A DNA stretch of 40,385 bases from an uncultured Opitutia bacterium. Lineage in GTDB: Bacteria > Verrucomicrobiota > Verrucomicrobiia > Opitutales > Opitutaceae. How positions within the stretch are numbered: the first letter of the stretch is position 1; every line of letters begins with the position of its first letter. Shown here in pieces: positions 24,599-25,945 of the stretch. The DNA is taken from contig CAITWF010000008.1 of NCBI GenBank assembly GCA_903896015.1, positions 1 through 40,385 on the forward strand, in the 5' to 3' direction. The position numbers and the translations under genes were made by a program. A model generated the notes under the pieces. The model was not told where the DNA came from and searched no databases. It saw only the letters and a list, made by a program, of their open reading frames with translations.

Positions 24599-25945
24599 TC
24601 ACTCTGGCTCGGCCGTGCCTTCGACCACCCAGCCCCGCGCCTCGGGAACGTGTTCGAAGAATTTCCGCAGCGCCGCGCTTAGGTGCTCCGCGTAGCGGAA
24701 ATGAGCGCCCATGCCGGTGCGCAGCTCAGCCTCATAGATGAACTTATCCGCGTGCGTGCTGTGCTCGAACGGTGTCTGCGCGCCGAGCAGCAGAGAATAA
24801 ACGTAGGCCGGCGAGCCGCGTTCAAGGAGTTCCCGCGTGAGCGCAAGCTGCTCGGCGAGCAAGCCGGCATGCGGCGCGCGATCGATTTCGGGCGGGAGGT
24901 AAAATCCGGCTTGAATCAGCGGTGTAAAACGGTGGCCCGTGCGGTGGCGGTTAAGATCGCGGAGTTCGGCGAGCGCCATGTTATTCCATGCAAAAGAAAC
25001 CCGCATGCGGCGCGTCGCGGTGCCCTGCTGACCGTAGCGGTTCGCGCGGTGGCGGAGCGACTCGGCGATCGGCTGCGTCTCGCCGAGAAACGGCGGCGTC
25101 ACGCGATCCACATGCACCCAGACGTCGTCGGCAAGCGGCGCGGACGAGAGCCGCGCACGGCCGAGCGCGATGGAGGCAGCGAGTTCCTGCGCGGTCTGCG
25201 CCTCGAAAGATCTTTCCGCGGAGCTATGGCGCATGAGGCGCGGCGACTGTTTGAGGAGTTCGTCGCGGATGAGCGTCGCCGCGGCGCGCGCCTCAGGGTG
25301 CGGCAGCGAGTCGAGATGCTTTACGGTCGTCGCCCACATGCGCGAGGACTGGACGAGGCCGAGGTTTGTGCGTGTGGCGAAAGGAATAAAATAACGTGCG
25401 CGATCGAGGGCGTAATTTTTGCGAAGGCGCGCGACGACGGCGGGCTTCGCATCGGCGGGCAGGCGCACGCGCTCCGGCTCGGCGATCGCAAGCGCGTCGA
25501 GCCGCGCATACTCGGCGTGATAAGCGGCGAACGCCCGCGCCATCACGTCGCGCCAGAGTTCCGCAAGATCAGCGGGGATACCGAGTCCTTCGGGCGACGA
25601 AAGATTCGACGCGTCCATCGTGATGTAGCGCGTGCTGGATTCCTGCCCGTCCGCCATCGTCGCGATCTCGAAAATTTTATAGGCGAGCCACATCGAGACA
25701 TCGTCGAGCGCGATCGCGAGGCCGCCGGTGAGTCCGCCGATCGAGGCGTGGCCGTAGTCGACGAACTTAAGAATGCGATCAATCGAGGCGTCGGGGTTGT
25801 TGACGTCGACTTTGGAGAGGATGTTGGCGAGGCCGTCGTTGCTGCGCGAGTAGCGCGCGAGGACCGATGCGAGCAACTCGGGCGTGACCTTCGGAAGGTC
25901 GGCGGCAGTCGGGGGCGGAACGAGGGCGAGGCCGGTGATTCTCAT
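24599..25945 (-). CDS. Tandem ThyX-like (FAD-dependent thymidylate synthase family) protein
   Basis: This 448-residue protein looks like two ThyX modules in a row. The first half has GHASIG (65-70), MWLAYKIFEIATMADGQESS leading to TRYI (108) and ARYFIPFATRTNLG (183-196). These match ThyX GHxSxxEH, the QSQRY substrate motif and the LP/T segment, but the RHR motif is missing. The second half has LAELRDLNRHRTGHRF (325-340), retaining RHR but lacking the usual Ser-containing continuation and QSQRY. Canonical ThyX has about 220-260 residues, is a tetramer, and makes dTMP from dUMP using FAD and methylene-tetrahydrofolate. Whether this double form is active, or works on another substrate, cannot be told from sequence. 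It lies 73 bases from the end of the complex I operon. Confidence 0.75.
   Translation of the reverse strand: MRITGLALVPPPTAADLPKVTPELLASVLARYSRSNDGLANILSKVDVNNPDASIDRILKFVDYGHASIGGLTGGLAIALDDVSMWLAYKIFEIATMADGQESSTRYITMDASNLSSPEGLGIPADLAELWRDVMARAFAAYHAEYARLDALAIAEPERVRLPADAKPAVVARLRKNYALDRARYFIPFATRTNLGLVQSSRMWATTVKHLDSLPHPEARAAATLIRDELLKQSPRLMRHSSAERSFEAQTAQELAASIALGRARLSSAPLADDVWVHVDRVTPPFLGETQPIAESLRHRANRYGQQGTATRRMRVSFAWNNMALAELRDLNRHRTGHRFTPLIQAGFYLPPEIDRAPHAGLLAEQLALTRELLERGSPAYVYSLLLGAQTPFEHSTHADKFIYEAELRTGMGAHFRYAEHLSAALRKFFEHVPEARGWVVEGTAEPE

Follow-up and report, generated by a model that had tools for sequence, protein, structure and literature searches.

ThyX (Thy1, PF02511), as known from Thermotoga maritima (TM0449), Mycobacterium tuberculosis and Helicobacter pylori, is a homotetramer. 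Each subunit is one domain of about 220-250 amino acids that carries the RHR motif and the dUMP loop together, and the tetramer has four equal active sites. In the M. tuberculosis enzyme, a site is built from subunit A with RHR 95-97 and R199, subunit B with S71 and R190, and subunit C with the Q103 backbone, R87, S105, R107 and the Y108 lid (PMC6514825). Passages on a viral ThyX agree with this division, Q75 and R182 coming from monomer A and S88/Q89 from monomer B (PMC3498832), and passages of another study support R174 as the dUMP activator and also a role for S88 and Y91 (PMC8316439). In titles and the first lines of abstracts of the open-access literature, a tandem ThyX with split motifs was not named among the matches listed.

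The window analyzed here, a stretch of 40,385 nucleotides from an uncultured bacterium of the family Opitutaceae, contains a gene in which these roles are divided over two halves of one chain. Its coding part without the stop codon (24602-25945) starts with ATG and specifies 448 amino acids, about twice the length of a normal ThyX, as the initial annotation had stated without giving the strand, which is minus. The gene and its parts are as follows.

24599-25945, minus strand: whole tandem ThyX gene including the stop codon (from the ORF list and Pfam; full length kept in relatives).
25148-25945, minus strand: N-half, residues 1-266, a ThyX domain without RHR that has roles B and C (Pfam Thy1 stretch 22-235; fold comparison of the N-half).
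25742-25753, minus strand: GHAS, residues 65-68, equivalent to H69 and S71 of M. tuberculosis, FAD site, role B (codons checked).
25661-25669, minus strand: E93-I94-A95 at the degenerate RHR position (register read from strands that correspond in the model).
25625-25648, minus strand: dUMP loop GQESSTRY, residues 100-107, role C (conservation in 34 tandem proteins).
25394-25396, minus strand: R184, equivalent to T. maritima R147 and M. tuberculosis R172 (alignment to M. tuberculosis ThyX; kept in 34 of 34 proteins and 80 of 80 loci).
24602-25147, minus strand: C-half, residues 267-448, a putative ThyX-like domain of divergent sequence that carries RHR and R409 and has role A (strand and helix order of the model; weak second Thy1 stretches).
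24941-24949, minus strand: R333-H334-R335, the RHR motif with FAD and dUMP contacts (34 of 34 proteins, 80 of 80 loci).
24905-24916, minus strand: I344-Q345-A346-G347 at the loop position of the C-half, with S, R and Y lost (alignments).
24719-24721, minus strand: R409, equivalent to T. maritima R174 and M. tuberculosis R199, dUMP activation (34 of 34 proteins, 80 of 80 loci; passages of PMC8316439).
24602-24619, minus strand: conserved C-terminal tail GTAEPE (26-row alignment and 80 loci; low pLDDT).

All of the T. maritima catalytic residues (H53, R78, H79, R80, S88, R90, Y91, R147 and R174) are present in the chain, S104, R106 and Y107 of the loop being the counterparts of S88, R90 and Y91. 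The initial annotation had assigned GHxS and STRY to a first half lacking RHR, and RHR to a second half lacking the substrate motif. Both assignments proved correct: STRY occupies residues 104-107 behind GHAS in a half that has EIA in place of RHR, and RHR lies in the context N-R-H-R-T-G (332-337) in a half without a dUMP loop, with I344, A346 and G347 at the loop position. We further noted that R409 is kept only in the C-half and R184 only in the N-half, and that the protein ends in an EPE tail, none of which had been reported in that annotation. The ThyX signature RHR...S.R.Y does not occur within one domain, RHR (333-335) and S/R/Y (104/106/107) lying in separate halves. The protein scored 49.8 bits with Pfam Thy1 (PF02511; curated cut-off 24.8), two Thy1 stretches being found at the permissive limit, with E-values up to 1. 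No NCBIfam family matched it up to an E-value of 1, and the profile of PHROG 36506 (thymidylate synthase, 491 positions) matched with an E-value of 5.1e-18 over residues 25-211 only. Because it has neither the single-domain signature nor an NCBIfam match, we placed the protein in a divergent branch of tandem proteins within the Thy1 superfamily and not in ThyX in the strict sense.

To follow the split in relatives, 34 tandem proteins from Verrucomicrobiota, phages and Thermomicrobium were compared. They consist of 26 aligned proteins and eight more distant ones and are 17-89% identical to the window protein (17-27% for the eight); five of the 34 (L210, L211, L212, L243 and L244, from named phages) were first met after the idea of a composite site had arisen. 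H66, S104, R106, R184, R333, H334, R335 and R409 were invariant in all 34, Y107 was present in 33 (F in L244) and S68 in 32 (T in two), and R202, the counterpart of M. tuberculosis R190, was lost in five. Within the 26-row alignment, H66, S68, S104, R106, Y107, R184 and R202 are located in the N-half of every protein, and R333, H334, R335 and R409 in the C-half of every protein, their N-half equivalents never being R or H. At the C-half positions equivalent to the N-half residues we found H306 in 3, S308 in 2, S344 in 2 and R346 in 2 of the 26 rows, and none at 347, 382 or 400. R87 of M. tuberculosis, which has role C, is not retained in the tandem N-half according to the alignment. An RHR motif at the N-half position was found in 0 of 26 rows and 0 of 80 loci, the latter being the best 80 of 311 relatives from a scan separate from the alignment, though some genomes are common to both. 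All eleven motif residues are kept in these 80 loci. In 21 of the 80, position 306 of the C-half is H, so the loss of GH there is not absolute. The EPE end was present in all 26 close-family proteins, bacterial and viral, and AEPE followed by a stop codon in 79 of the 80 loci, the remaining one (L081) ending at a contig edge. In an 11-row alignment only 13 columns were invariant, nine of which are ThyX catalytic residues. With the motifs taken as five units, a tetramer of two classes would likewise accommodate 6 of 32 random divisions; the partition alone is therefore weak, and its conservation over 17-89% identity is the stronger point.

When these residues are set against the subunit roles of ThyX, all residues of role A fall in the C-half, and the N-half holds those of roles B and C with the exception of R87. 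Partly from alignment, we take R182 of the viral enzyme and R174 of T. maritima to be the counterparts of R199, and R147 (here R184) to lie with the dUMP loop. We propose that four ThyX-like half-domains, contributed by two chains, would form a pseudo-tetramer in which the C-half would provide the FAD/dUMP side (R333, H334, R335 and R409) and the N-halves the FAD-phosphate contacts (S68 and R202) together with the dUMP loop (S104, R106, Y107 and R184). With three two-fold axes, C-halves as A and D and N-halves as B and C, the combinations A/B/C and D/C/B would contain only kept residues. A live site would thus require both N-halves together with a single C-half, so that a dimer would have two such sites and each chain one FAD, and the remaining two symmetry-related sites would be dead, having lost catalytic residues on both sides. 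As in ThyX, FAD in a live site would be reduced by NADPH, take the methylene from CH2-H4folate and hand it to dUMP activated by R409. The fold of the C-half, the dimer, the two sites and the catalysis are what we infer from these comparisons. Since a site would need three half-domains, activity is expected from two tandem chains that dimerize and not from a single self-sufficient chain, which refines the composite site suggested in the initial annotation.

An AlphaFold2 model of the single chain based on 26 rows, which superseded one built on 13 rows with a low-quality C-half (pLDDT 71.3), had a pLDDT of 87.9 and a pTM of 0.86, with only the last four residues below 50, and a strand-helix order that is alike in both halves. 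Residues 1-244 aligned with H. pylori ThyX (3ah5/3n3y) with a VIA-align Z of 14.6 and an rmsd of 2.7 over 187-188 residues; PolB gave a Z of 11.1, and the first row that is neither ThyX nor PolB had a Z of 3.5. The prediction for which the initial annotation had called thus places a ThyX fold in the N-half, and the FAD-contacting residues, which might have been lost from both halves, are kept and spread over the two. For the C-half, no ThyX structure was present among the matches listed with a residue range, an outcome that could arise when one domain takes up the whole list. Profile comparisons of the close-family C-half with normal ThyX, with the C-half of a second tandem kind (see below) or with the N-half were not significant. 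In the register taken from the model, strand 75-84 corresponds to 315-324 and strand 191-200 to 389-398, and the two halves share no more identical residues than chance would give (3/48 and 3/58). The indications that suggest a ThyX fold for the C-half consist of the weak Pfam stretches and the model. As judged from sequence profiles, the second tandem kind partly bridges this weak link, because its C-half (two-row profile) matches ThyX with an E-value of 3.6e-13. A stretch GAQTPFEH (388-395), picked up in a profile comparison as a counterpart of GHxSPFEH, was judged to be a chance match because it is located after RHR, at the strand equivalent to 191-200 of the N-half. A single-sequence search of the PDB with the window protein gave no match, and a profile search gave only weak ThyX matches. 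Among viral models, the best by E-value was the Ma-LMM01 thymidylate synthase (491 aa, 489 columns), with a TM-score of 0.63 by query length and an rmsd of 11.0.

Next to the protein itself, we examined its distribution. Of 57 genomes searched, 31 encode the tandem, the genome of the window included. They comprise 30 of 37 genomes of the same family (29 with the full-length gene, again including our own, and one with the gene in two contig pieces) and one genome from another family of the same order. The frame is full length in 19 other aligned genomes at 63-89% identity, and the best 80 of the 311 relatives in the genome collection are, by their titles, from Opitutaceae and other Verrucomicrobiota. 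In a sample of the phylum, 40 of 387 genomes matched a 13-row profile: 34 of the same family, five from four other families, and one with a weak match to the second tandem kind. The four full-length proteins among the five from other families were 44-47% identical to the window protein. A plasmid search with this protein gave no match. The gene nuoN lies directly upstream in 27 of the 77 loci with enough upstream DNA, and gene order is a weak clue. Other Thy1 proteins were encountered in the phylum as well. In L036, L037, L041, L051 and L060, from other Verrucomicrobiota, an ordinary single-domain ThyX continues in frame into a 3'-5' exonuclease domain at the C-terminus (PF01612, E-values 5e-23 to 3e-26, 5 of 5 proteins tested), and L174-L178 (G269, G381, G308, G121 and G145) and L173 (G190) are divergent, non-tandem Thy1 matches in open frames of 239-323 aa from two families.

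The initial annotation had recommended a genome search for thyA or a normal thyX. We found that the tandem is the sole Thy1 gene of its genome, in which a ThyA search gave no hit. Full-length ThyA was found in 7 of 47 genomes searched, all without the close-family tandem; it was present in none of the 36 tandem genomes, as against 7 of the 10 genomes of this family that have no tandem, the other three of these ten being 80-84% complete. Two of the 36 tandem genomes (G004 and G007) have a partial ThyA-like match. Such matches (profile 93/104-222) lie in open frames of 348-365 aa at G004:C1:1635553-1635984, G007:C20:343682-344086 and G011:C138:25999-26403, and these frames perhaps represent a ThyA-derived enzyme of another function. 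The search for DHFR and thymidine kinase (Tdk) covered 21 genomes, among them 11 with the tandem. DHFR was found in all seven ThyA genomes, within 200 bases of ThyA in six of them, and was undetected in 5 of the 11 tandem genomes, as would be expected if ThyX chemistry spares DHFR, which is stated in passages of PMC9931769. Two of the 11 have Tdk, and since one of them is the window's own genome, salvage is possible in the latter; Tdk was undetected in the other nine. G005, a single contig rated 100% complete, had no ThyA, DHFR or Tdk match. The genomes compared are related, and the ThyA, DHFR and Tdk counts are therefore not independent events. This genome content fits a supply of dTMP by the tandem where ThyA is absent.

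Tandem genes are also found in phages. Eighteen IMG/VR loci, on contigs of up to 379 kb, encode tandems with 34-50% identity, as does Microcystis phage Mvi-JY20, and more distant forms are encoded by Microcystis phage Ma-LMM01, the Vibrio phages BONAISHI and Yong MS32, Tunturiibacter phage Tunturi_5 and Microcoleus phage My-WqHQDG. According to passages of PMC7824862, the genomes of most jumbo phages encode either TS or ThyX, and the ThyX of a related cyanophage is named in passages of PMC9927357 that do not comment on its structure. In Tunturi_5 (L212:1-3940) the annotated genes run from dUTPase through a helicase and dCMP deaminase to the tandem thymidylate synthase, the dCMP deaminase adjoining the tandem, which suggests a dUMP-supply set. 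Among 23 neighbor proteins tested at other viral loci, five function in replication or recombination (5'-3' exonuclease, two clamp-loader parts, RuvC and RuvB), nine had no family match, and none was an enzyme of dNTP synthesis. An RtcB RNA ligase with an intein domain (L192:6638-9040) is encoded near one viral tandem thyX gene. In the phylogenetic tree a single group (97/95) unites the Opitutaceae-type rows, and a supported larger group around it also contains ten viral rows, the other viral rows being placed elsewhere. Viral scans with L212, L067 and L211 returned no relatives. The second tandem kind is represented by L067:517-2109 (minus strand) from a Verrucomicrobiota genome and L191:2905-4575 from the Thermomicrobium roseum megaplasmid. 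These two proteins have in common a C-terminal stretch with three cysteines (PPC...CPEG.RYCG) that possibly binds metal.

Several other explanations were weighed against these data. An assembly or frameshift artefact or a decaying gene fusion has practically no chance of being correct: artefact, frameshift and decayed pseudogene are ruled out by the conserved relatives, with the full-length frame in 29 of 37 same-family genomes plus the one in two pieces, 311 relatives in the genome collection and 18 viral loci. We also consider it very improbable that the N-half is an enzyme in another way and that the C-half is a structural pseudo-domain with RHR used otherwise. The weak resemblance of the C-half to ThyX would suit such an arrangement, but RHR and R409 are invariant there in all 34 proteins and missing from the N-half, and the C-half of the second kind (L067, L191) is clearly Thy1 and keeps the same residues. 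Little credence is given to a ThyX-derived enzyme with another product (a PolB-like uridylate methylase or a dUMP hydroxymethylase), the dTMP then coming from salvage. PolB, a UMP/dUMP methylase, does share the fold of the N-half (Z 11.1), phages make modified pyrimidines according to passages of PMC7824862, and the window's genome has Tdk. Against this, the nine ThyX catalytic residues are all present, full-length ThyA is absent from 36 of 36 tandem genomes and takes the tandem's place in seven of the ten genomes of the family that lack it, Tdk is absent from 9 of 11 tandem genomes tested, and G005, complete on one contig, lacks matches to ThyA, DHFR and Tdk alike. The new flavin-dependent activity that the initial annotation had offered as its alternative is not needed to account for any of the evidence.

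The composite active site, in turn, is strongly supported by the subunit roles in solved ThyX structures, the invariance of the split residues and the replacement of ThyA in the family. It is very likely that the tandem protein works like ThyX, and very probably the two halves with their complementary residue losses act as one enzyme. We regard it as highly probable that this fused, asymmetric ThyX with a composite site is the thymidylate synthase of the Opitutaceae bacterium and of its tandem-bearing relatives. A more far-reaching interpretation, that the tandems form a separate, phage-spread class of thymidylate synthases in which the fusion broke the tetramer symmetry, leaving two composite live sites per pseudo-tetramer, and the two dead sites and the EPE tail were reused, for example to form a lid or to bind nucleotide, folate or NADPH for regulation or docking, seems unlikely.

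If the fused, asymmetric ThyX is confirmed, it would be a natural asymmetric variant with a single copy of each catalytic residue per chain. In an enzyme that otherwise has four-fold symmetry, the part played by each residue, for example in the reduction of flavin by NADPH, could then be examined site by site. A likely thymidylate synthase would then be named for most sampled members of a bacterial family in which the NCBIfam library misses it. The tandem ties this family to jumbo phages and cyanophages, and complementary loss would represent a route by which a duplicated enzyme reaches obligate asymmetry. The tandem is a widespread variant of ThyX, its design being shared by bacterial relatives and numerous phages.

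The closest counterparts in architecture are Ma-LMM01 gp020 (YP_851034.1, 491 aa) and the proteins of the jumbo phages Tunturi_5 and BONAISHI, which have the same tandem and the same split residues. They are 21-24% identical to the window protein and lack the EPE tail; they are annotated as thymidylate synthase(-like), and a split site is not mentioned in the annotation lines and passages of papers that concern them. PHROG 36506, which the window protein matches, is a model of 491 positions, and gp020 is likewise 491 aa long. In the second kind, T. roseum WP_012643046.1 (557 aa, FAD-dependent thymidylate synthase) and L067 divide the catalytic residues as in the window protein, to which they are 17-21% identical, but both of their halves are clearly Thy1, with GHHT and SEQVSQRY motifs and a Cys-containing C-terminal tail. 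The Chlamydia ThyX (about 530 aa) may belong to this second kind as well. Bimodular QueF and the herpesvirus dUTPase are also fused duplicates of an oligomeric enzyme with motifs shared between the halves, but their folds and reactions are unrelated to those of the tandem ThyX. With ThyX itself, the window protein shares the fold of the N-half, all nine catalytic residues somewhere in the chain and a distribution in which it replaces ThyA. Unlike ThyX, it is a tandem of two unlike halves, with the motifs split between them and two active sites expected.
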